NCBI GenBank assembly: GCA_018398585.1
Contig: JAGTTD010000002.1
Span: forward strand, 34,650,186 to 34,714,185
Length of the DNA: 64,000 bases
Reading direction: 5' to 3'
DNA from: Simmondsia chinensis
Taxonomy: Eukaryota; Streptophyta; Magnoliopsida; Caryophyllales; Simmondsiaceae
Shown one piece after another: positions 6,561 to 61,416 of the stretch (its first letter is position 1; each line of letters starts with the position of its first letter). The notes under the pieces were generated by a model. The model saw nothing but the letters and a program-made list of their open reading frames with translations. It was not told where the DNA came from and ran no database searches. The translations under genes were made by a program, and so were the position numbers.

Positions 6561-9500
6561 CCACAGACATACTCTTTCTAGAATGTTACAATTGAATGGA
6601 CCTCCCATTGACAGCTCTCGAGCCTGCTCTGTATTCGGTTGTGGGTTTCACAAGGGATCCCATGTTACCACGGGGAAAAGTTACTTTGACACGATCTTTC
6701 GAGACAGAATCAAACAGCGGGAAGTGAGTGTGGATTATCTGGTTGTAGATGCCCCTTTGGCTTACAATGATATATTGGTTAGACCAACATTAAACCGGCT
6801 CAAAGCCGTGATCTCAACTTACCATCTGACTATGAAGTTTATAACAGATGGTGGTGGTGTTATATCAATTAAGGGGAGTCAGGCTCTAGCTAAGGAATGT
6901 CACCAAGTACTTACAGGCCCAGCCGTTATGCTAGCTAAACCTGCTCACCCTCAACAATCATTCCCCACTGTACCAACCACGGCTATTAACTCTGCCTCAC
7001 CGTTGTTAGAGAAATATGAACTTGAGACTGGGCGGTATGTCAACTTGGGCACGAGGTTACCCTCCCGCCTGCGCGAGGAAATATGAGAGCTCTTAAAGCA
7101 GTTTCGCAATGTCTTTGCATTTGTAACAGAAGAAATGCCAAGGATATTCCCAGAAGTAATCACGCATCAGCTTAACATACGGATTGACAAAACACCTGTC
7201 AGGAAAAAGAGGCACAGCTTTTGCACAGAGAGATAAAGGTTGAAATACAGCGGCTACTATGGGTAGGGTTCATTTGAGAAGTTCTATATCCTGAATGGTT
7301 AACCAATGGGTGCTTGTAAGAAAGCTTAACGGGAGTTGGAGAATGTGCATGGATTTTACTGACCTTAATGCTGCATGCCCGAAGGACTCGTACCCGTTGC
7401 CTAAAATTGATAGGTTAGTAGATTTAATGGCAGGAAACGAATTGTTCAGCTTCATGGATGCTTTTTTCAGGTATCATCAGATACCAATGCACCCCAGCGA
7501 TGAAGAAATCATGTCCTTCATAACAGCCAAAGGAACATACTGTTATATGGTTATGCCATTTGGCTTAAAAAACACCGGCAAAACCTATCAACGACTTGTT
7601 AATAAGGTTTTCGCTCAGCAAATTAGCCGAAATATGGAGGTTTTTATCGATGACATGATAGATAAGTCACGGAAGAAATCTGAACATGTGAAAGACCTAA
7701 AGGAAGCCTTGGAAGCCCTCCAAAAATATCGAATGAAGCTGAACCGGGAAAAATGCTCGTTTGGAGTATACGAGGGAAAATTCCTGTGCTTTATTGTAAG
7801 TTCCCAAGGAATCCAAGCAAATCCCAGGAAGGTCCACGCCATTCTCGAAATGGGGTCTCCCATAATAGAGAGAGGTCCAAAAGCTAACGGGGTGTATTGC
7901 TTCGCTGAACTGATTCATTAGCCGTTTGGCCGATAAAGCTCTTCCCTTCTTCAAGGTATTAAGGGGCAAACAACCCTTCTGTTGAAATGATAATTGCAAA
8001 CAAGCATTTCTTCAGTTGAAACAGTATCTTTCTCAACTACCCACCATCACGAAACCTGATCTCAGTGAAACACTGTACCTGTACTTGGCTACATCTAAAG
8101 ATACTGTAAGTGTAGTCGTGGTGGTTAACCGCGAAGGACAGTAGCTTCCTGTATACTTCAGAAGCCAGATTCTTACAGACCCAGAAAGAAGGTATCACGA
8201 CTTGGAGAAAGCCGTACTAGTTCTAGTTACAGCAGCATGAAAGATAAGACCGTACTTTCAAGCTCACTCTATAGTGGTGCTGACTAACCTGCCATCCAAG
8301 AAATTGCTCTCAAGATTAGATTGTTTGGGAAGAATGCTGGCCTCGGCAGTTGAGCTTTTAGAATCTGACATTTGTTATTCGCCACGAACAACCATAAAAG
8401 CACAGGTCCTAACCGACTTCCTAGCTGAATGTTCTTTTGACCGTTAGCACGTCTGAACCTCTAACATCAACAGGAGAAGAATGCACTTGGAAAGTATTTG
8501 TTGATGGCTCTGTTAACAAAGAAGGCTGTGGTGTGGGAATAGTATTAGTTAATCCAGGCGGAGAACAAGTTGAGTAGGCAGTCAAGTTAAATTTCAAGGC
8601 AACTGGTAACCAGGGTAAATATGAAGCCCTACTCCACAGCATTGACTTCGCCATGGTAGCCGGAGCGCAACGCATTGTTGTCCAAAGCGACTCGAAGTTG
8701 ATAGCGAAGCAAGTGTCGGGGAAGTATGAGGCAAAGGAACCGCAGTTGCAAAGGTACTTAGATCTAGTCCTAAGAATGATTTCCAAATTAGAGGACTTCG
8801 TCATACAAGGGATTCCCCGTGAGGACAATAAGCATGTGGATGGACTAAGCTGCTATGCTCTCATGAAGTCATCCACGGGAAAGCAAGAGGGACGTGTAAG
8901 TGTGTAGGAAGTTGAAAGTACCTTGACAAACAAGAGTCAAAATGGCTAATGCAAGTATAAGACAAGGAAGGGTGGATGGGACCTATCCTTGCATATATCT
9001 TACAAAATAAATTGCCATCAGACGATAAGGAAGCACGTAAGCTCCGAAGGTAGGCGGCCCACTTCGTCTTACTCGACCAACAACTTTATAAAAGGTCATT
9101 CACACACGCTACTAAAATGCTTGACAGAGGAACAGGGAAATTACGTACTAAGGGAAATTCATGAGGGCATTTGTGGTACCCATATTGGACGGAGAACCCT
9201 AGCTAGAATGGCGCTACAAGTAGGTTACTTTTGGCTAACCTTCAAGAAAGACGCTGACACCTTAGTACAAAAGTGTGAAAAAGGCCAAAAATTTGTACCC
9301 TTAATCCACACCCCGGCAACGGATTTGCCCCCAATCGTTGACCCCATGCCCTTTGCACAATGGGGGATGGATATTCTGGGACACTTTCCATTAGCCAGCG
9401 GACAAAGGAAGTTCCTGATAGTGATGGTTGATTATTTTAGTAAGTGGGTTGAGGCCGAACCAGTGGAAAGGATCACCGAGAGTGTCACCCATCAGTTTCT

Positions 9501-24439: not shown

Positions 24440-25484
24440 AGATAAGGCATCCGCAATAAGATTCTCCTTACATTTCTTGTAAAAAATTTTGTAATAGTGT
24501 TAGTAATTCTCTGCTAAAGAAGGTACTTAAGGGCTTGGTGGTTAGTTTTGATGATGAAGCAACCAAGTTCAAGATGATGAACCAACCAAGTTCAAGATAA
24601 TGTCACTACTTAGCAATGGCCATGAGAATAGCCATGAACTGTTTCTCATATGTGGATAAACCTAAGCTTCTAGGCTCAAAGGCCTTGCTTAAAAAGGCAA
24701 TAGGTTTCCCCTGGCGCATTAATACAGCCCCCATACCTAGGAATAAGCATCAGTTTCAAGTGTGAACTGTTGAGTGAAACTGGAGCACTAATTATAGCAG
24801 CCTTAAGCTGCTGGAAAGCAGAATCAGCTGCAGGGGACCACTAGAAGCCCCCTTTTTGAGGAGTTTTGTGAGTGATTTGGCTATAGTGCCATAATGTTGT
24901 ACAAATTTGCGATAATAACCAGTCAGGCCAAGGAAGGATCTATGTTCCTTGAAATTTCGTGGCTTGGGCCAGGACAACATAACCTCAACCTTGGATGGGT
25001 CTGTAGCTATCCCTGTAGCCATGATAATGTGTCTAAGGTACTCTATCTTGGGCTGAGCAAAGCTACATTTTGACCTTTTGGCAGAGAGTTGATGTTGTTT
25101 AAGTGTGGCTAAGACAGTTTGGAGGTGAATAAGATGAGAAGTAAGAGAAGGGCTATAAACAAGGATGTCACCAAAGAAAACAAGCACAAATTTCCTAAGA
25201 TAAGGCCCAAAGATTTCATTCATAAGAGCCTGGAAGGTGGCAGGGGCATTAATAAGGCCAAACGGCATGACCTTAAATTCAAAATGACCATGGTGAGTTT
25301 GGAAGGTTGTTTTTGGGATGTCAAGTTGATGCACGCACACTTGGAAATAACCAGCTCTTAAATCTAGCTTTAAGAAAATAGTGGCACCATTTAATTCATC
25401 TAATAGATCATCAATATGGGGTATGGAAAATTTATTTTTGATAGTAAGGTCATTGAGTTGGTGGTAATCTACACAAAACCTCAT
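24440..25484 (-). pseudogene. Reverse transcriptase and RNase H of chromovirus
   Basis: RT spans 25484-24792: MRFCVDYHQLND, the first catalytic aspartate in LKLDLRAGYFQV, VMPFGLINAPATFQALMN, then VFFGDILVYS where the family has FFDDILVYS. That change replaces one of the two active-site aspartates with glycine, which should abolish polymerisation. FLGLTGYYRKFV ends the domain. RNase H remains can be followed in broken frames to about 24440. Confidence 0.88.
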
Positions 25485-25784
25485 AGATCCATCTTTTTTT
25501 AACTAACAAAATAAGGGATGCAAATGGGGAATAGCTAGGTCGTATGATGGAGTTTTGAAGCATATCTTGAACTTGTTTCTCAATTTCATTTTTATGCAGA
25601 AAAGAATAGTGATAAGGTCTAATGTTTATGGGTTTAACATTGTCTTTTAGTGGAATATGGTGATCATGATATCAGAAGGGTGGAAGGCCCTTAGGTTCTT
25701 GAAACGCGTCATCAAAATCAGCTAAGAGGGATTGAATTACGGGAGGAAGAGGATCAGATTGTACCTGCCCAAGTTCCTGGCCAT

Positions 25785-26441
25785 GAACCAGCAGTAAAGT
25801 GGCTACAAAGTACTCATCTTCTTGTTACAGAAGTCCTATAGCTTTCGTCCAGTCATCATCTTCAACGATCCAGAATCTACAATGCCAATTAGCTCTACCT
25901 ACTTCCCATCTTTAGTAAAACTTAGCTTGAGGTTGTTGAAATCGAAAGAAATAGGGGTTGTACTGCTTCATCCAGTCCACCCCAAGTAACATATCACAAC
26001 CTTCAATTTTCATGAGTAAACAAACAAACAACAACAAACCCAGTGCCTCCAAGGGCTCCCCCATAAGCAGGGTCTGGGGGGTAGATGTACGCAGCCTTCC
26101 CCCTTCAGGGGGATACCCTGAAGAGAGGCTATTTTCGATGACCCCTAACCTGAGTCTAATGTCATAACAGAAACTGTGATTCTGCATCTGCCACTTAACC
26201 CGGCTCTATTATCTACTGAGCATGGTTTGGCCATTTGCAACTGTGATGCCAAGGGGAGAAGTATCCTCCATTGTGAATCCAGCCTCTCTAGCAAGCCTAG
26301 GATTGAGGAAGCTATGTGTGCTTCCACTGTCGATGAGACTAATGGCAGATCGCTTATGTAGGTGGCCAAGGATTTTAAGGGTGCTGGATGAAGCCCCATC
26401 AGTAAGAGCATGAACATAAACCTCTTCAGCTTTGTCATCAC
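25785..26441 (-). pseudogene. Protease region of chromovirus, split by a retroposon
   Basis: Near 26350 the - strand reads AISLIDSGSTHSFLNPRLA, an intact aspartic-protease DSG motif. Downstream, the CYDIR and KIEGCDMLLGVDWM blocks, normally adjacent, are separated by the insert at 26018-26150. The protease would have cut the gag-pol polyprotein. Confidence 0.82.
26018..26150 (-). mobile_element. 5'-truncated TTG-tailed SINE/LINE 3' end (copy C)
   Basis: On the - strand a 133-bp insert starts AGGTTAGGGGTCATC, continues GGGGGAAGGCTGCGTACATC and a CCCCCCAGACCC block, and ends in TTGTTGTTTGTTTGTTT. It is homologous to the 3' end of the element at 31680-32265 and to the body of the 5S-headed elements at 60362-60478 and 60902-61038. 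The flanking direct repeat TGAGT (26013-26017, 26151-26155) is short. Insertion split the chromovirus protease, so this event is younger than the chromovirus. Confidence 0.82.
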
Positions 26442-26475: not shown

Positions 26476-27566
26476 TTAATCAACCTCGGATTGTGGGCAG
26501 GAATCCAGGTCAGCTGCTTCAATGCTAAGAAGAGACTGATTCTCACAATGATGGCCTGGAAAATACCGCTTGTTACACTTGCAACAGAGGTTAGAGCTTC
26601 TCGGAATGGGGTTCTTGGTCCAGTTTGTATTGCTTCTGGGACGGGGTATGGAATTTCTTAGGGAAGTAAGGGAAGTGGAAGTGGGTGCAATGAGATTTTT
26701 ACCTTTGTGGAGGGTTGCTTCAGAGGATTTGGTGAACAGCTTGGCTTTTGTATAAGCAGTTGTCAAGGATCTTGGATTTACTGCTTTAACCAAGGGTTGA
26801 ATCTCGTTATCCAGACCAAATATGTAAGAGGAGAGGAAATAGCTTTCACTAAATAAATTTTCATTGGAAAGCTTGTGCGATCTAAGAGCCTCAAAACGTT
26901 CTTGGTACTCCTGTAACGATCCTGTCTGCTTGAGCTTATTGAATTGGCTAACCACATCAGCTTCATCATTGCCTTCAAACCGTTCATACAATTCCTCGGG
27001 AAATTCATCCTAAGTCAGCCCCCCTTATCCATTATAAGTTCCTATAGCCATACATCAGTTTTGCCGTCGAGATGCACACCCGCGATTTTCAACTTCATAT
27101 TCTCTAGAGTCTGGTAAAGAGAGAAATACCTCTGACAATGACGCAGCCAACTCCTAGGGTTTTCCCCACTGAACAAAGGGAAACCGATTTTGGTCTTAGG
27201 TACAGAACCATTCCCTGGATGAATATCATCAGTCTGACTGTTATCACTCTCTTGCTCTAGGTGAGAACCAAGAATCGAGGGTTTCTCGAAGTTGTCCTAG
27301 CCCACATGTGCCCTGGATTCATGCAATCTGGCCTCTACCTCGTTGTTCCATGCCGGATTCGAAGATTGTGAGGAATTAAGTCCCAATTGTTGCATGAGTG
27401 AAAACATTTGCATGCTGTTCTATTGCAAAGCCTCCATCATCTTGCTATGGTGCTCCTCTTTGCTGTGGATGACATCGGGAAGGCGATTGTGCAGTCGTTC
27501 AGCTTGCTGTTTTGATTCTGCAAGCTTTTGCACTAGGGTCTGGACCTGACTTTCGATTTTGGCCAT
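26476..27566 (-). pseudogene. Gag of chromovirus
   Basis: Reading begins at ATG 27566-27564, about 90 bp inside the 5' LTR, with a coiled-coil-like N-terminus rich in Gln, His and Glu. It continues through GFPLFSGENPRSWLRHCQRYF and YERFEGNDEADVVSQFNKLKQTGSLQEYQERFEAL (the gag core). It ends with a CCHC zinc knuckle, CCKCNKRYFPGHHC. Stops near 27420, 27300 and 27010 and a frame change break it. Confidence 0.85.
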
Positions 27567-31679: not shown

Positions 31680-32265
31680 CAACAACAACAACAACAATTC
31701 AGGTGCCTCAAGGGCTCCTGCAAAAGCGGGGTCTGGGGGGTAGATGTACGCAGCCTTCCCCCTTCAGGGTGTCAACCTAAAGAAAGACTATTTCTGAGGA
31801 CCCCCAACCTGAGAGATATGTCTTCATCGCATCATGGTGACCTGTGAGCAATGAACTGTGAGTAATAGGGTATGAAAGCAAAAGAGTAAGCCATAGCATA
31901 AAAACGCCCTAGAAGAGACTACGAGGCAAAACCTTCCCTTCAAGGCAGCTAGTATAAGCAAATAAGCCAAATAAACAAATAAGTAAATAGGCCAATAGTA
32001 AACAGATAGGCGTATAGGTAGATAGGTCTAATAAGCCTATACGCCTATGAACACATAAATAGCAGAATAAGCAGCGGTGTGAGGCTGCTACCTTTGCTAC
32101 TCCTATGCTAGTCCTCCCTCGAGCTCTAGCTCTATCTATATCTAAGGCCATTTCCTTCCGTGGGTTTAGGTGGGTGAGGTCTTGCCGTACGACTGCAGTC
32201 GTCCCTCCTTTGGCCTGTTTCATCCTCTTCTTCCTAGCGTGGTACAAAGCTGATCGCAATACCTA
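31680..32265 (-). mobile_element. 5'-truncated non-LTR retrotransposon 3' end, RTE-like, TTG-tailed
   Basis: A 586-bp insert is bounded by a perfect 15-bp TSD, TAATTCTCCATAGTA (31665-31679 and 32266-32280). On the - strand it opens with an open frame (to about 31909) containing VVRQDLTHLNPRKEMALDI, which resembles the C-terminal tail of plant RTE-clade LINE proteins. Then follows a non-coding part ending CTCAGGTTGGGGGTCC...AAGGCTGCGTACATCTACC...GCACCTGAA(TTG)n. That last part of about 150 bp is shared with copy C and with the 5S-headed elements. The long TSD and TTG tail fit target-primed reverse transcription. The LINE assignment rests on a short protein resemblance and is the weaker part of the call. 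Confidence 0.7.
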
Positions 32266-34797: not shown

Positions 34798-37700
34798 TTG
34801 GTGGATGTAAATAAGCTCAAAAGTAGAACTTCTGGCCCCACTTGCGAGGAGCCCGGCAACGCGGCTCATGCAACAAGACACGTAATTTCGACCATAAAAC
34901 AGAAGCGGGAGAACATGAGTCTCGCTATCGTGAGGAGAGAAGAAGGCAGATTTAAAAAATATCGGCCCTTAACGTTCTCCCAAGAAGACTTAGAGAATGT
35001 CCGCACCCCGCACAAGGATCCCATGGTCATCTCCATGGATGTCCATGACTGCACCCTCCGAAGGGTCCTAGTGGATCAAGGAAGTTCGGCCAACATATTG
35101 TTCCTCCATTGCTTCGAACTGATGGGCATGCCGCTCGCGAAACTACCCCCCACGACTGGGACCCTCGCGGGATTTTCTCGCAAGGTAGTTGATCCGCTAA
35201 ACACCATAAAACTCGAGATCCTCTTAGGCGATGGAGAGCAAAAGCACGCACTTATCACCAAATTCTATGTCGTGGCGGCCCGCTCATCATTTAATGCCAT
35301 CCGAGGTCATCTGGTGCTAAACTCGTTAGGCGCTGTGATGTCAACATACCACCTCACCATGAAGTTTGAGACTGACAAAGGGGGCATCATAACCATGAGA
35401 GGTTGTCAACTTTTGCACCGAACGAAACTAGGTCATAAGAGAAGAAATACGGAAGCTCTTAAAAGTTGGCTTCATACTAGAGGTGTCATACCCGGACTGG
35501 CTAGCAAACATGGTCCTGGTAAAGAAGCCGAGTGGAAATTGGGGGATGTGCGCAGACTTCACCGACCTGAGTAAAGCCTGGCCGAAAAATGCGTTTCCTC
35601 GCCCCAAGATCAACCAGTTAGTCAACTCCACGGCAGGGAACGCGTTGTTCAGCTTTATGAATGCCTTCTCTAGGTGCCACCAAATCGGAATGGACCCGAA
35701 GGATGAGGAGAAAATGGCTTTCATTACCAACGAGGGAACTTACTGCTTCCGAGTCATGCCATTCGGATTGAAGAACGCCGGAGCCACCTACCAGTGCTTG
35801 GTGAACCATGTCTTCCAGCCGCAGTTAGGGAGAAACTTGGAGGCGTACGTCGACGATATGATCATAAAAAGTAAGGAGGCTGCTAATCATGTGAACGACC
35901 CAAGGGAGACCCTAGAAACACTTAGGGCTCACGGGATGCGCCATAATCGGAACAAGTGCATGTTCGCAGTCCCGGAAGGGAAGTTCTTAGGCTTCGTTGT
36001 CAGTGTAAGAGGAATAGAGGCCAATCCTGCCAAGGTGGATGCCATGCTCCAGATGGAAACTTCGAAGACCCCAAGGGACATTCCAAAGCTGACCGAATGT
36101 CTCACCGTGCTCAACAGGTTTATCAGTCGATTGGAAGATTGGTCACTCCCCTTCTTTAAGTATTACAAAGAAGAGAAGCCTTCAATTGGGTCGAATCCTG
36201 TGAGCAAACACTCCGAGAGCTCAAGGAGCACTTGGCTAAGCTTCTGATCCTGTCCATACCCATTTCGGGCAAGGACTTAATTTTCTACACCTCTGAATCG
36301 GACGACACCATGAGTGCCATGTTGACGTCCAAGAGGGAAGGCCTCCAGCTGCCGATTTACTTCGTAAGTCACATATTGAAGGACGCCGAGACATGGTACC
36401 CCAACATCAGGAAACTCGCCTATGCCGTCATCATAGCCGCACAGAAACTCCGACCTTACTTCTAGGTGCATCGTATTCGGATACGAACCAATCGGCCCTT
36501 GTAGAAATCCCTCCAACGCCTGGAGTGCTAGGGAAGAATGCTATCCTGGGCAGTCGAAATTTTCGAGTATGACATCCTGTTCAAGTTACAGACAGTGATT
36601 AAGGCACAGGCCCTAGCAGACTTCTTGGAAGAATGCTCGTTTACTACTGTGGCGTCACCTAGCTCTGAACAGCAAGATACTCCGGAAGGATCATGAAAGC
36701 TATATATAGACGGGTCTTCCAACCACCAAGGAAGCGGAGCTGGTATCTTGCTCATCTTGCCCAAGAAGCAACACTTCCTCTACGCCTTAAGGTTCAAGTT
36801 CAGGACTAGTAACAACGAGGCCGAGTATAAAGCACTCTTTCATGGGTTAAGAATGGCCCGAAAGGCAGGCGCACACCAAGTTGAGATATTCAGCGACTCT
36901 CAATTAATCGTCAAACAGGTACAAGGAATTTATAGAGTGAAAAGCACCGCCATGGAGGAATTCTTGGAGGTGGTAAAAAAGGAAGCGAAAACCTTCTCTT
37001 TCTTCAAAATCCACCGCATTCCAAGAGCCAAAAATGTCAAAGCCGATGAGCTCAGCCGGATTTCCAGTTCGACAATGGAGGAGACAAAACTAGAACCCGC
37101 CATTCGGATAGAGGAAATTCAGACATCATGCCAACATTTACCTCAGCCCGCGGGGATCGCCCTAGTCTAGCCCTTGAAAGATTGGCGGCGACCCATCATC
37201 GAGTTCGTAAAAACGAAACTCTGCTCGAGGACCCGGTGGAAGCTAGATACATCCGAAGACGCGCACCGTGGTTCGTGATAATCGACGAAGACCTCTACAA
37301 AAGATCATTTGTACACCCCCTGCTGAAGTGCGTCGGAGGGGAAGAAGTGAAGTACGTCTTATGAGAAATTCATGAAGGTATTTGTGGACAGCACCTCGGC
37401 CATCGAGCCTTAACCAACAAGGCCTGTGATCGGGTTACTATTGGCCTACCATGAAGAAAGACGTGTAAGACCTCGTCTAGAAGTGCGAAAGGTGCCAGAA
37501 ACATGCTCCGATAATCCACGTGCCGCAACTTTTTTACAACCTATACTTAGTCCTATTCCTTTCACTCAATGGGGGATGAACATCTCGGGACCATATCCCA
37601 AAGCGACCGGACAACGGACGTACATCATAGTAGCCGTGGATTACTTCAGCAAATGGATAGAGGTGGAACCCGTCGCGCAGATCACGGATCAAGCCGTCCA

Positions 37701-47660: not shown

Positions 47661-49439
47661 TCAACCTAGTTGTAAGTATGCATCAGGAGGTCTGCCAGTT
47701 CCATACCAAATTAACCAAATTTTAACACCAAGAACCACACTTAAGAATCTCTTGTTACAACCAACATTGTCCGGCACCAATATTTTCCAGCAAAAATGTA
47801 TTGAACGATAAGATAGCAGCTGTACCAACCACGGATTACACATAACAGTCTGAATTGTTATGGGACCAATGTTTTCTGGTGGTTCTGTTGGTTCTACCAC
47901 CTCCTACTGCTGAATTGTTCCCTCTTTCACTGCCATGGTGATTCTTTGCATCAGTTTATCGTGAACAACAGAGAATAGAGCTGTTTTATACCCTTGAGGT
48001 GATGTTAAATTAGTTGCAGTGAGCTTGTCTGTATCCCTCTTGGTTTGGAACTCAAGGATTTGAAGGCTGCTATGAATCATTCTTACTTTAGAGCTAGACT
48101 TAAGTTGAATTTTGACATCTAACTCCAATCCTTCTAGATCAGGGGGCCTATTATTGGTGTTCTTTGATGAGTATACATCAACCCTCTTCAATGAAGCTCG
48201 CCACTAGATCTGCTTGTGCCAAACCCCTGGCTGAATTTGATCTTCCCTCTTCACTATAGAATTATCAACTTGTTTCTTTGCTGAATTTGATTGCCCTGCA
48301 GCATTAGCAACCCATTTCTCCACTAACTTTGCTTCTTTCCTGATAGAATTCATCCTTTCCTTTGCTATCTTACTTGTCTTCTTGATCCAAGAAAGTACCT
48401 CTAATCTATCAATGGTCTTCATCATCATTTTTGGTTGCTCTAATTTCTTAGTCTTGAGGATGTTGAGCTTGCTAAAAATCTCCTTATTGGACTTAAGGGA
48501 AGGAAAATCAGGTGGTCTACCTCTATCATTCAAGAGTGGTATTGCTTTTACCCCATGAGGCTTGGCAATTGTTTTGATCTGATCTTGCATTCCAATTCTA
48601 TCATGCTGCACAAGTTTCTTGCTCCCTGAATTCCACATATCACTCACTTTCAAGCCCAACCTCTGAGGCTGCAGATGCAATTTTGCTAATTGTTCAGCAC
48701 TTGATTTTGTATTGTCATCATTCACTGCTGAATATGCAGCAACTTCCTTCCTCAATTCAATGCAAACATGATTCTGCCTTTCAATATGTACTGCTGGAAC
48801 ATCGGTAGCAACTTGGAGTGCTGCCAAACCAATCTCGTCTAGATCTTCCAGCTTCTGTTGCTGCACTACTGTTGAAGAATTCAATCCCACTTCAGGGACT
48901 TCATGATTCAAGCCACTGCCAAATTCAATTGTTGCATTTTGTGAGCCATCTTGATTCAGATTCTGCTTTAAATCTGATTATTCATGAAACTTCTTGCTAT
49001 AGCCCACTTTCTTGCACTTATCTTGCTTGATCTCAACATTTTGTTGTAGTGTTATGACATTACCTTGATTCATTGCTGAATCCTCAACCACTTTTGCACA
49101 CATTCCTCCATTCTTTTCATCAGGGACATTAAGTTGCATTGGTCAATATGGGAGAAGATTGTCTAGTGTTTCTACAGTTTTCATCCAAGGATTGAAAAAT
49201 TGAACATCTAACAAACAACAGTTGTCATAGATGTTTCTTCCATGTAGGTCAATAATTGCCGAGGCAGCTTAGTTTATTGAAGAATATGTCACATTGGCTT
49301 CAATATCTTGGTTAGTTATTGAGTAGATTTTCATTTCTTCAATATGACCATAGGGATCAAAGACTTTGTGGAGGATATTTTTGGTGATGGGATAGAGAAC
49401 ATTCAAAATTTTTACCACAAGTGTAGATGCGGTTTCCAT
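47661..49439 (-). pseudogene. Element gene with N-terminal PTB-like RRM, about 590 codons, several stops
   Basis: On the - strand one frame runs from ATG 49439-49437 to about 47661 without a frameshift. It is interrupted by about five stops (near 49270, 49150, 48975, 48203 and 47903). Residues 1-85 read as a whole RRM: LVVKILNVLYPITKNILHKVFDPYG, a central VTYSSIN strand, then AIIDLHGRNIYDNCCLLDVQF. This pattern is typical of the second RRM of plant polypyrimidine-tract-binding proteins (LYPVT, LHKVFSPYG, LQGRNIYDGCCQLDIQFS). The remaining 500 residues are Lys/Gln/Asn-rich and not recognised. In host cells PTB proteins bind CU-rich RNA in splicing and RNA transport. Here the domain may have bound the element's own RNA, which is inference. 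Confidence 0.72.
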
Positions 49440-53030: not shown

Positions 53031-53260
53031 GTCAAACACTTTACTATAAAAAAATACAAATTTTAAATAAATAAATTTTATTAAAATATATAAATAAAAA
53101 ACAAATTAAAATAAGTTGAAAGAAACACATTTACATTTATGAAAACAAGATGGTGATCCTTAAAAATAGCTTTTCTTCAGAGTAGCTTTCAAAAGGAGAA
53201 AAGCTGTATACATTTATCCAAAATCCTGCTTTTATGGAAAGCTTTAAAGGCACTAAATTA
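53027..53260. repeat. Right arm of a MITE related to 46667-50303
   Basis: ACACTTTACTATAAAAA...AAATAAGTTGAAAGAAACACAT parallels ACACTTCACTGTAAAAA...AAATAAGCTGAACCAAATGCACACAT at 50200-50305. The left arm is not visible, presumably lost with the 3' part of the copia element. Confidence 0.45.
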
Positions 53261-53980
53261 TTATTGTTGTTGTGGAAGACAAGATGCCAGCTGGGAAGCG
53301 TAATTATCGCCGAGAGTACACATAGGATTCTACTCAATCAAGCCCACACGAACTGCTCCTCTTCACTTCTTCCAATGCAATCTTGCCACGTGTACAAGAT
53401 TCCCTTATTATTTAATTTACTAAAATTATCGTTTAGTTACCGTAAATTTTGATTATTTATTTATTATATATTCTAATATATATAATAGGATACCTTGAGA
53501 TTTAAAAATGTCATCAGTTAGATATCAAAAGTTTATCAATGAGATATTCTTTTTCCAAAGTTTGACAGACTTTCTTTGAAAAATATTCAAATGAAACAAG
53601 ATTTTGATAATGTAAGTTCATTGATTAGAATTTTATAATTTTTTACCAAAAAATGCTAATAGATAAGTAGTTTACATCTCAACTCAATAAAATTTTTATT
53701 GTTATTTATTAATTTTTTATTCAAAATATCAACACAACTTATATATATTATTGTAATAATGTATTATGTTAGCATTTTTTTGTATAAAATTGGTCTGATT
53801 TTTATAAAAATTCATCAAATTTTCACATAAGGTATCTAAGTAATTAAAAATTTCAAACATTAGGATATTTCATTGTGTATATTAAAACGTTAAAGTATGT
53901 AACCAAAAAATGAATAAACCTCAGGGTAACTAAATGATAATTTTTCTTTAATTTATTTAATTAAAAAAATCTTCCCCATT
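53261..53980. other. AT-rich upstream intergenic DNA
   Basis: No gene; AT-rich sequence before the promoter of the F-box gene. The open frames at 53137-53452 lack similarity to anything I know. Confidence 0.55.
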
Positions 53981-55026: not shown

Positions 55027-55138
55027 GTGTAGGAGCAGTTTTTCCTTTCTATACATATAATTTAGGATCGTTGTTTATTGCTGAAGGGATCATACAAGGA
55101 AGAGATTTTGTCTTCTTGAAATAAAAAGGTGGGTAGCT

Positions 55139-58100
55139 ATGGGTAAAGAATCTCTTACGGAACTGGATTCAAAAGCATTAAGACGGAGAAGGCGATCACA
55201 GAGCTCACGCAAGTATCTGAAGCCAGGAGCGCTCGCTCAGCTTCGATATAGCAGGACATCAGCTGCAAAGTCCTGTACAGATCTTGGAAAGAAAAGGGTT
55301 GCTTTGTCAGATGCTAGGAAGGTGGTGAACAGTGACTTCGTACTTGAAAATAAGGCTGTGGAAGGGAGCCCCCCACTGATGTCACCAGAAAGGTTTGAGT
55401 TTTCTCCTGTGCCTAGACCTCCGGACATTTTAGAACACAATAATATGCTGAAAACTCCCAAGACACCGCAGAATGTTGAAGCTGATTCCGAATCAAGACT
55501 TGAGGCTATTCCTATGGAGTTGTTGGTATGTTCTATATTGATGGCTTGTTATCCTCACTGTCGTTTTTAAGTTGATCCTTGCATATATGATGGTTATTGC
55601 TCTGCAATGAATATGAACTTATTCTTAGGTAAATCTGCTTGTGTCCCCAATGCGTTCTCTATGAACAAGTGAAACCACAAATTCATTGTTTGTGACAAAG
55701 GGAGGAACCATATGCACGCATGAAAATGGATAACTTAACTAATTAGATGTTGTATCTGTTCTCACGTTGACAGATGATTTGATATGAATAGGCATGCTGG
55801 AAATTTTAGAAATTGAGAACCTATTGACTTGGACTGCATGGTTATGAGAATAAGGGGAGAAGCAGTTGGAATCAAATCCCTTAAGGGAGGTCATCAGGAG
55901 TTTTTACAGCTCGGCTACTTCTCCTTTGACTTTTGCAATGTGGTTTTATGCTTTAGTTTTGTTTCCTCGCTTTTACCCAGAAAGTATTGTGATGTTGATA
56001 ATTCCAACGTATCTTCTTGTTTGATTTGGCACTCTCACTGATATTCCATGTATATATTAAACCATATCCTTCTCCCTCACTTCTGTTTATGTGCTTCCCA
56101 TCATCCATCTTCACTCAGTATGATAGGAAAGCAGTTGGAGTTTTGATATCTCAGGATTCTTACGGCTTTTGTGCGGGTTGAAACTTTCCCTGCGAGGAAA
56201 TTTTTCAATGGGATGGCTAAAATACTGGGCTGTCATTTCATTTTAGACCAAATATGATCACAAGTCACATACCTTCCCCTAATGCTCTTTAAAGTGTTTA
56301 TTGGATCGTTGTAATAGTTTCTAGTACATTATATGCGCTGTGCAGCTAGCTTATCATTTACCCAGAAACACCTTCAGGTATAAATGAGCTGAGCCAAGCT
56401 GAGTCCGAGCTTGTTAGGCTCGAGATTTGGCTTTCCAAGCCTGTAGATTTTGAGCTTAAACTCAACTTGCTATGAGCTCAAGCTAGCTTAGCCTAGTTTA
56501 GCTTGGATTACACCCAATGAATATTGTGCCAAGATTTGCTTGCGTACGCTTATTGATGCTGGGCTTAGGATCTTTTGGTTGGCTGATTGAGGCTTGAACT
56601 TGGCTTGTTGAGGCATTTTTAAGGTTGATTTTAGCTCTAGATTGACTCATTTAGCCTCCTTTGGGTTCATTAGGATTGTGACTCGTCAAATCCAAACTCG
56701 GGCATGGCCCGTTTAGCTGAAGAAGGAAACTTGACTCAGCTTGAGGTCGCAACCCAAGCATTTTAAGCTTAATTACTAGCCTCTTAAGTCCGTTCCCCTC
56801 AATTGTATTCCTAAGCAGAGCCCACAAGCAGGATCAAATCATGCTATTCCCTTTGCACCACCTTAGCATGCTAGAATCACCTGGATCTATGTTCTTATTT
56901 ACCGTTGTGGTTGACATATAGCAATGGTATGAGCTCGATTCCATTTTATTTTTGTTCTGTATCTTTATTCCACAAACGCAATGGAAGCAGGAGATTGTGG
57001 CCTGCCCTGATGCTTCATTTGCTCAATATGAAAGAATTTAAGGCTTATGCTACATTTCCTGTCCCTGATTTTACTTGTTGCAAATATTGATGAGTTTTTT
57101 TTGGCCGCATTCTATATAGGTGAAAATACTGTGCCACCTGCACCATGACCAACTGAGGGCTGTGTTTCATGTATCTCAAAGGATCAGAAAGGCCGTAAGT
57201 CCTTTGCCCTTTTCCATTTTAGTGTTAAGTGTCTTTGGGTGTTAGAAACATTTTGAATTTATTTTTTCTTGTGACTTCATTTCATTGAGGCAGGTCGTAC
57301 TTGCTAAGCAATTCCATTTTAATTACACAACACCAGATCGGTCGCGCCAAGAGATGTTGAGAACTATGACTCCACTTCCGACGGACCACTGGCCTTTTGC
57401 AAGGTCTGTAAAGTGAGTTTCATTAACATTTTATTTGTTTCTGTGTATTAATATTTAATTTACAATTCCAACCATAAAATCCTACTGCAGTTTGCAGTTT
57501 TAAGGATACGGTTGTAAATGAATCAAACATTTAATGAATTCCTCATGCTCCAAATCGATTAGAGCTCATTCATGTTTGTTATGAGGGTTCAATAGCTTAT
57601 TGAGCTAAGTTTGAGTAGGACTCGATAAGCTTAACAAGCTAGGTTTGTATGTAAGGGTGTTCAACTTGTTATAGTTCACGAAAATTTTGATATGGGCTTG
57701 TTAACTACTTAGTATCAGCTCAAAAATGGTTTGACATTGGCTTTATAGTAACTTGGATAACTAGACTTGATCCGAGCTTGACTTAGGTTAATAACGAGAT
57801 TACTCTAACGAGCACGCTTTTGTTGAGCTCAAGTTTGAACAAGGGGTGCTTGGCTCGATTTGGCTCATTTACGCCTTTAGTCGTGGATGTGGTGTGTCTT
57901 TTAGAAGTCTGAAGGAATAGCCCTAATCATTACTTTATCACTACCATTTGATAGGTTTAGCATATAAACACACTTGTATGTTTTAGCAAATCAAATACAA
58001 TTTATATTGAATTATGGAGGTCACTGTTGCATAATCACCAGCCTAAGTCCATTCCATTAAGTAACATTCTTCATTTGATTCCACGATCTCAATGCAACTG

Positions 58101-59720: not shown

Positions 59721-60225
59721 TTGAAATTCTATATTGACTTCTTTTACCTGAAACTGAAAATGACTAGCTCTATTTGCTCAAACACAAGATTACTTGAAAG
59801 CAAAAGATTTTACTAGCCCTAAATTTGATCTAAAACATGAAATGACCTAAATCTTGAATGACTTGAACCTAAAATGACTCTGTCCGACTCAAACTCGATC
59901 TTATTTGACTCAAAGTTTAAAGTGATCCAATGCGATTATGTAATATAAGGATTCCGGAACTTGGAAATTAAAATTTTTTGTTGGCAATATATGGAAAATT
60001 TGAAGCGACCCAGTGTGACCCGCCTTATGTACTATATTTTTTTGAAAGTTGTTATGTAATAATTATGAGTTCATATTAGGACTTAATAATTTTTTTTACT
60101 AAAAAATGTTGATAGTAGACATGATTAGATAATATTTAGATGTCATTTCAAGATCTATTGGATCTTTTGTATATTAGTAGAAAATACTAAGAAGTACGTA
60201 ACATCATTTCTGTTTTGTAGAATTG
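59721..60225. other. AT-rich intergenic DNA with GACTTGA/TGACC motifs
   Basis: No gene. Degenerate CTTGAATGACTTGAACC words (59820-59930) resemble those inside the Tourist-like MITEs. Confidence 0.45.
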
Positions 60226-60241
60226 TTTAGAGCTTGATGGA

Positions 60242-60361
60242 CCTAAGAGGGTACCAACACGCAAGCATCGGATCCCGTTAGAACTCCGAAATTAAGCGTG
60301 CTTGAGCGACAGTGGTACCAAGATGGGTGACCTCTTGGGAAAGTCCTCGTGTTGCACCCCT
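60242..60361 (+). pseudogene. 5S rRNA-like sequence forming the head of copy A
   Basis: Full length (about 120 nt) but with perhaps 15-20 differences from the usual plant 5S, so not a functional rRNA gene. There is no array and no T-run terminator right after it; the sequence runs on into the SINE body. Confidence 0.85.
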
Positions 60362-60478
60362 CAAGTTGGGGGTTCACAGAAACAGCCTCCCTGAAAGGGG
60401 AATGCTGCATACATCCACCCCCTCCCCCAAACGTTGCTTAGGCGGAAGCCCTTAAAGCACTGAAAATGTTGCTTTTTT
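60242..60478 (+). mobile_element. 5S rRNA-headed SINE, full-length copy A
   Basis: A 237-bp insert has a 16-bp TSD with one difference (TTTAGAGCTTGATGGA at 60226-60241, TTTAGAGCTTGGTGGA at 60479-60494). The first 120 nt (60242-60361) align end to end with plant 5S rRNA: TACCA-CAC, CGGATCCC, AGAACTCCGAAATTAAGCGTGCTTGAGCG (promoter A-box region), GATGGGTGACCTCTTGGGA (C-box region, 60322-60340), GTCCTCGTGTTGCACCCC. The next 117 nt (GGGGGTTC, CTGCATACATC, a C-rich block, AGCACTGAAAATGTTG, T-run) are a LINE/SINE 3' end. The internal 5S promoter could drive RNA polymerase III transcription. Confidence 0.88.
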
Positions 60479-60494
60479 TTTAGAGCTTGGTGGA

Positions 60495-60808
60495 AAATCA
60501 CCGTACCGAAAAAAAAAAAAAACCAAAGATAACTCAAAATAATTCTTCGAAAATAACGTAAACGAGCTCGATAGCACACAGAACATGAGCAAATCCTTAT
60601 ATACCGAATCGTTCAACCAGTACAATTTTCATGGAGCATTGACTAACATTAAAAGCTTTGCTTAAAAAAGAATACGAATCATGTCTTTTTCTTAAGAAAA
60701 AAAAATAAATTAAAAAAATTAAACATGCCTAGTTTTTATCTACTCCTAGAAAAGTTGGCCTAAATCAATCCCATCGATTCATGGAATGATATCCTGTTTA
60801 AGGAAATT
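60495..60808. other. Spacer between the two 5S-headed SINEs
   Basis: AT-rich DNA of about 310 bp without a gene. It is unrelated to the interior of Cassandra-type elements, with no primer-binding site or purine tract beside the 5S-like units. Confidence 0.5.
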
Positions 60809-60824
60809 ACATGTGAATTTTATT

Positions 60825-61038
60825 AGAACTCCGAAATTAAGTATGTTTGAACAAAAGTAGTATCAAGATGGGCGACCTCCTTGGAAGTCCTCGTGTTACA
60901 CCTCTCAGGTTGGGGGTACTCAAAAACAGCCTCTCTTTAGGGTAGCACCCTAAAGGGGAAAGGGCTGCATATACCCCTCCTCCCGACCCTAAATAGGCAA
61001 GAGCCTTAGAACACTGAGAATGTTGTTTTTTTTTTTTC
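60825..61038 (+). mobile_element. 5S rRNA-headed SINE, 5'-truncated copy B
   Basis: The copy begins inside the 5S part (AGAACTCCGAAATTAAG, about 5S nt 47). It continues through GATGGGCGACCTCCTTGGA and GTCCTCGTGTTACACC, and crosses the same junction into the same body (CAGGTTGGGGGTACTC, GGGCTGCATATACC, ACACTGAGAATGTTG, T-run). It has its own 14-bp TSD, ACATGTGAATTTTA (60809-60822) and ACATGTGGATTCTA (61039-61052), with two differences. It was therefore inserted independently of copy A. Confidence 0.88.
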
Positions 61039-61052
61039 ACATGTGGATTCTA

Positions 61053-61416
61053 TCAATTTAGGACTCTTACGATATAGTTTTCTATTTATTTTTAAGAAAT
61101 TCAAAACCAAAATTTAAAAAACTGTTTCCAGATATGAATTTGCTTCTAAAAAGCCAAAAACTATTTTTTTCATAATTAGTGACAAAATCATAATACAAGT
61201 ATTTCGTAGAAACAAAACCTAAATCAATTCGCAGAAAAATAGGGAACAAAACAAAGACAAAAAAAAAAAATACTACTGACCAAGGAAACAAGATTACAGG
61301 ACGAAATACAGGCAAACAACCAACAAGGACTATAGATCTACTACCACCACTAGATAGTATGGACAAGGGAAAAAAGCTAAAAGCTACAAATAGAAAAGGA
61401 TTACAAGCATACTCTT
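61053..61416. other. AT-rich intergenic DNA
   Basis: No gene or element is recognised. The - strand open frame at 61082-61366 is hydrophobic by composition only. Confidence 0.5.

Follow-up and report, generated by a model that had tools for sequence, protein, structure and literature searches.

SINEs with a head derived from 5S rRNA, the SINE3 type, have been described in animals and fungi (PMC3747384, PMC8010984, PMC5063351, PMC10886601), with examples that include zebrafish SINE3, AmnSINE1, springhare Ped-1, the lepidopteran elements HaSE3, PxSE4 and PxSE5, and SINE3-1_AO and AfuSINE3 of Aspergillus; capture of the 5S promoter by SINEs is likewise cited for animals (PMC10853983). Plant SINEs, by the account of a 2022 review, are tRNA-derived (PMC9033089). 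Among them, the tobacco TS SINE is described as having about 100 bases in common with an RTE LINE that, like the SINE, has a TTG ending, and the tails of Au SINEs are given as (T)2-5 (PMC3747384). In legumes, a Tn ending is reported for RTE-related SINEs and a (GTT)n ending for their LINEs, and plant RTE-clade LINEs and SINEs are reported to have a T stretch some ten nucleotides ahead of a target duplication that starts with T, usually followed by A (PMC13295347). A 2010 paper does speak of 5S-homologous sequences among SINE3 'including plants', and the citation given there is the one used for Cassandra (PMC3095306).

Among the literature matches listed, a coverage short on subscription papers and on Repbase, there was no plant 5S SINE, and the body sequence of the element described here, used as a literature query, returned no plant-SINE title among the matches listed; the suggestion, made in an earlier note on this DNA, that the family is possibly undescribed is not contradicted. 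AnnoSINE, a program for annotating SINEs in plants, screens its candidates against 5S, tRNA and 7SL, and the accessible text of the paper describing it reports no 5S-headed plant SINE; since candidates nearly identical to known RNAs are discarded (PMC8825457), young copies of a 5S-headed family could be filtered out. Searches of other collections, little informative for plant DNA, gave no match for the junction patterns in viral and prokaryotic contigs or for the body pattern in viral contigs, and no relative by blastn against plasmids. A peptide query spanning the junction returned no candidate sharing three words.

A 5S-derived head on a LINE/SINE-type body

The window, by which we mean the whole 64-kb stretch of DNA that was analysed, contains a single host gene that we could identify, an F-box frame at 55085-55567 (+) resembling plant At4g35930; its named relatives, among the matches listed, are dicots, and the best named relatives among the best 120 of 143 matches, from Opuntia and Camellia, are 60% identical. 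The host is therefore most likely a dicot, with no closely related annotated species in that protein collection. Pieces of LTR-retrotransposon reverse transcriptase lie at 7295-7918 (+; Pfam RVT_1) and 35432-36247 (+; 1859 protein relatives), and an open frame of 257 aa at 48204-48977 (minus) has no Pfam match and is not, by eye, a recognisable retroelement.

At 60242-60478 we find an insert of 237 bp (copy 1), bracketed by a 16-bp target duplication and built from the following parts.

60226..60241, no strand assigned: 5' target-site duplication, TTTAGAGCTTGATGGA, 15/16 identical to 60479-60494
60242..60362, + strand: 5S rRNA-derived head (Rfam match, 5S register and identity)
60292-60304, + strand: A-box region, within the head
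60320-60329, + strand: C-box, AAGATGGGTG, within the head
60363..60472, + strand: body, or 3' region, common to four other copies in the window (nhmmer, blastn and alignments)
60473..60478, + strand: T tail, the element's first run of at least four T
60479..60494, no strand assigned: 3' target-site duplication, TTTAGAGCTTGGTGGA

The T run of the tail carries on into the 3' duplication. Random placement of 20,000 inserts of matching size in the window gave 15 that scored equally well for their flanking duplication. The 237-bp insert and 16-bp duplication claimed in the earlier note are borne out by these figures, as is the claimed switch from a 5S head to a LINE/SINE-type 3' end, which falls at about 60362/60363 and recurs at the same point in a second copy described below.

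In a search of the whole window against Rfam 15 at the gathering threshold, the sole match is 5S rRNA, at 60247-60360 (55.8 bits, E 5.6e-9). ARAGORN, in its bacterial setting, gives 0 tRNA in the window; decayed tRNA heads of SINEs can escape this program, and it is the 5S match that carries the weight of the identification. For finer comparison we used a generic plant 5S reference, which may differ from the host's own 5S. If A60241, the final duplication base and assignable equally to duplication or insert, is taken as position 1, the landmarks CGGATCCC, AGAACTCCGAA, TTAAGCGTGCTTG and GATGGGTGACCTC fall at 29, 40, 52 and 82, exactly the positions they hold in the reference, and one extra base in the head places a further, last landmark at 101, as against 100 in the reference. 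Positions 12-100 agree with the reference at 76 of 89 sites; positions 1-11 agree at only 3 of 11, no better than chance. The earlier note had described a complete 5S head beginning at its first nucleotide, and of this description the register and the length stand while the first 11 nt do not.

Read from its sequence, the head of copy 1 has lost the 5' strand of helix I and has kept the core of the putative internal promoter. The A-box region TTAAGCGTGCTTG is intact in copy 1 (by the usual box limits), and the C-box agrees with the canonical 5S C-box, given as AGGATGGGTG (PMC10853983), at 9/10 positions for the first copy and at 8/10 for the second; the IE was assessed through the overall identity of the head only. 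Folding of the copy 1 head yields no 5S-like closing helix, and with a z-score of only -1.62, a fold equalled by 14 of 200 shuffles, a 5S function at the RNA level is unsupported. The pairing of an exact 5S register with 11 leading nucleotides that are not 5S may be accounted for by a promoter that sets its start by distance, together with uptake of neighbouring DNA.

A second headed copy with its own target duplication

A second headed copy (copy 2) lies 345 bp from the first and begins inside the 5S part, immediately after its own target duplication.

60809..60823, no strand assigned: 5' target-site duplication, 13/15 identical to 61039-61053
60824..60906, + strand: 5S-derived head, 5'-truncated at 5S position 39 (alignment to the reference 5S)
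60907..61038, + strand: body and T tail, with the T run at 61026-61037
61039..61053, no strand assigned: 3' target-site duplication

In the corresponding control, 44 of 20,000 random inserts scored equally well for their duplication. The two copies carry an identical 5S/body junction and are 73% identical overall (67/80 aligned sites in the heads, 79/105 in the bodies). Their target duplications differ, which indicates two separate insertions, and we reject a tandem duplication of one copy. Copy 1 is a genuine retroposed 5S-headed SINE, a type represented by at least two insertions in the window. Neither headed copy has a run of four T ahead of its tail, an absence to be read against the frequency of such T4-free stretches in GC-matched DNA (0.675 and 0.70).

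5S pseudogenes are generally common, and a processed 5S pseudogene might have landed by chance beside an old SINE or LINE tail. The target duplication encloses head and body together, however, and the same junction is found at two separate loci; a lone 5S pseudogene is ruled out by the second copy with its different target duplication, and we regard a chance landing as having next to no probability.

The two copies might also be read as long terminal repeats, paired or solo, left by a Cassandra-like TRIM with 5S inside its LTRs, Cassandra being the known 5S-bearing plant retroelement (PMC10853983, PMC10886601). Yet each headed copy has its own duplication of 15-16 bp, whereas related TRIMs leave 5 bp, a length that PMC10886601 gives for Helenus in plants and for Ajax; the 5S here sits at the edge of the element, whereas that of Cassandra is reported never to lie at the LTR termini (PMC10853983); and both copies end in T runs. 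A repeat scan of 59900-61300 showed no LTR pair besides the two copies themselves, and three exact primer-binding-site strings are absent from the plus strand of 59901-61300. With a long duplication for each copy, T ends and none of these strings on the plus strand, we reject a Cassandra LTR pair, to which we would assign hardly any probability, and the absence of Cassandra LTRs asserted in the earlier note holds good.

Headless copies and the 5S/body junction

The 3' region of the body is present in three further copies in the window, which have no 5S head.

31683..31818, - strand: headless copy 3, with a (TTG)n end (nhmmer E 7e-13, copy 1 as query)
26023..26155, - strand: headless copy 4, with a TTG-type end (nhmmer E 3.6e-10, copy 1 as query)
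53147..53272, + strand: headless copy 5, heavily decayed, with a TTG-type end (nhmmer match 53147-53213, E 0.0013, copy 2 as query)

Copies 3 and 4 are identical at 102 of 121 sites; copy 5, which starts at the start of the body, is 67-70% identical to the four other bodies. All three end in TTG repeats, as against T runs in both headed copies. Target duplications of copies 3 and 4 were looked for and not found. Copy 4 is situated inside a minus-strand LTR retrotransposon, between its gag-like frame at 26476-27009 (by eye) and its reverse transcriptase part at 24792-25502 (Pfam RVT_1).

In all three headless copies the common sequence begins no more than a few bases away from the 5S/body junction, a start that could be an effect of the nhmmer query, which has 5S upstream of that point. 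In comparisons of the 200 nt upstream of the headless copies with shuffled sequence, 255, 75 and 17 of 300 shuffles scored equally well, and copy 4 is flanked, by eye, by LTR-retrotransposon sequence right up to the junction point. With no clear similarity among the upstream parts, and with LTR-retrotransposon sequence next to copy 4, the junction has the appearance of a genuine 5' edge. An account of the headless copies as randomly truncated LINE ends is weakened, since all three start at the junction with dissimilar upstream parts; the same common starting point, unlike random truncation of a LINE, is also a point against the SINE3-type explanation set out below. With three of three headless copies beginning there, the junction is probably a stop for the reverse transcriptase.

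A recurrent stop of this kind bears on how the headed copies arose. They might be two independent chimeras, in which a LINE reverse transcriptase, having stopped at the 5' edge of the body, twice switched to the 3' terminus of a 5S rRNA of the cell, with no replicating 5S-headed source. The junction does coincide with the natural 3' end of 5S RNA, the apparent stop of all three headless copies at this point suggests that a jump there could recur, and the headed copies number only two in the 64-kb window, with the junction constant between them. Against two separate chimeras stand the differences that the heads have in common. Over 83 sites, with the extra base of copy 1 omitted, comparison with the angiosperm 5S reference, which may differ from the host's own 5S, gives 8 differences for copy 1 and 16 for copy 2; six of the changed sites are common to both copies, and five of these carry the same base (hypergeometric P 4.7e-4, relative to this reference). 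G-to-A or C-to-T changes, of the methylation type, account for four of the five, and for that type alone P is 0.017; the remaining one is T-to-C, which cytosine deamination would not explain, again by this reference. One of the five sits at the edge of the copy 2 duplication. Common changes of this number favour one replicating lineage over two chance fusions.

The bodies group in the same way: eight columns set copies 1 and 2 against copies 3 and 4, with two and one for the other groupings, though at four of these eight columns the difference is between A and G and could come from parallel decay. Both headed copies, moreover, end in T runs and not in TTG. Given these observations we hold two independent chimeras to be unlikely. 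The 5S-headed SINE family put forward in the earlier note gains substance from the two independent insertions, their same junction and the common head changes, on a sample of two headed copies in 64 kb.

Target signature, proposed mechanism and relation to known systems

Upstream of each headed copy lies a short T stretch.

60213..60216, + strand: T stretch of copy 1, T4, 11 nt before the TA that opens the duplication
60797..60799, + strand: T stretch of copy 2, T3, 8 nt before the TA at 60808

A T stretch followed by TA, the signature reported for plant RTE-clade elements, is thus present at both headed copies, in a test made post hoc on two sites; across the window, 6.0% of TA dinucleotides have T4, and 15.5% have T3, ahead of them at a gap of 7-12. 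No RTE LINE, and no LINE coding region carrying the body, was identified in the window.

We consider it likely that the headed copies belong to a plant SINE family of SINE3 type, mobilised by an RTE-clade LINE, and such a family would presumably extend beyond the window. For its replication we propose that pol III would transcribe the element from the 5S-type internal promoter of the head (A box, IE and C box, dependent on TFIIIA), with the transcript starting a set number of bases ahead of these elements, on or beside 60241, and that the polymerase would read through the body and terminate at the T run. The body would correspond to the 3' end of an RTE-clade LINE and be recognised by the protein of that partner LINE, which would nick the target at a TA some ten bases downstream of a T stretch; target-primed reverse transcription would then insert a copy of the RNA and leave a duplication of 15-16 bp. 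Where the start is set by distance, a source copy without its first bases could adopt neighbouring DNA as a new 5' end. The founder perhaps arose by a jump of the enzyme from the stop at the junction onto 5S RNA.

A 5S-headed plant SINE would mean that the 5S promoter has been taken up by LINE-mobilised elements in plants too, besides animals and fungi. Cassandra has been speculated to originate from insertion of a SINE3 into an LTR (PMC10886601), and a plant SINE3 would give this proposed class of donor a concrete form, testable by comparison of the 5S parts. A broader proposal, which we would put at even chances, is that the copies represent a SINE3 lineage, so far undescribed, in flowering plants, founded when a reverse transcriptase left its stop in the tail of an RTE-clade LINE and switched to 5S RNA; that plants have accordingly made the type of 5S donor speculated for Cassandra; and that the lineage may exchange its first 11 nt for flanking DNA through a start set by distance and still be active.

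In its general plan the element agrees with the SINE3 type, whose head is likewise derived from 5S and contains a type-1 pol III promoter. Several SINE3 members share their 3' part with a LINE, and springhare Ped-1 joins a 5S head to a BovB tail, of the RTE clade (PMC3747384). The SINE3 hosts named above are animals and fungi, whereas the present copies come from a plant, most likely a dicot, and have a tail of plant LINE/SINE type that ends in T. In body and ending the copies appear to resemble what we take to be their nearest plant counterparts, the Au-like SINEs of the Angio-domain superfamily, with its 37-bp 3' domain, and the tobacco TS SINE. The Au-like, Angio-domain SINEs have a tRNA head, in contrast to the 5S head found here, where no tRNA was found. 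The T runs of the two headed copies and the TTG ends of the three headless ones recall the contrast of Tn and (GTT)n described for the legume RTE system (PMC13295347). The 5S promoter also serves Cassandra, another retroelement of plants, but Cassandra has its 5S within LTRs, while the element described here combines a 5S head with long target duplications and a T-run tail and has no LTR that we could find.
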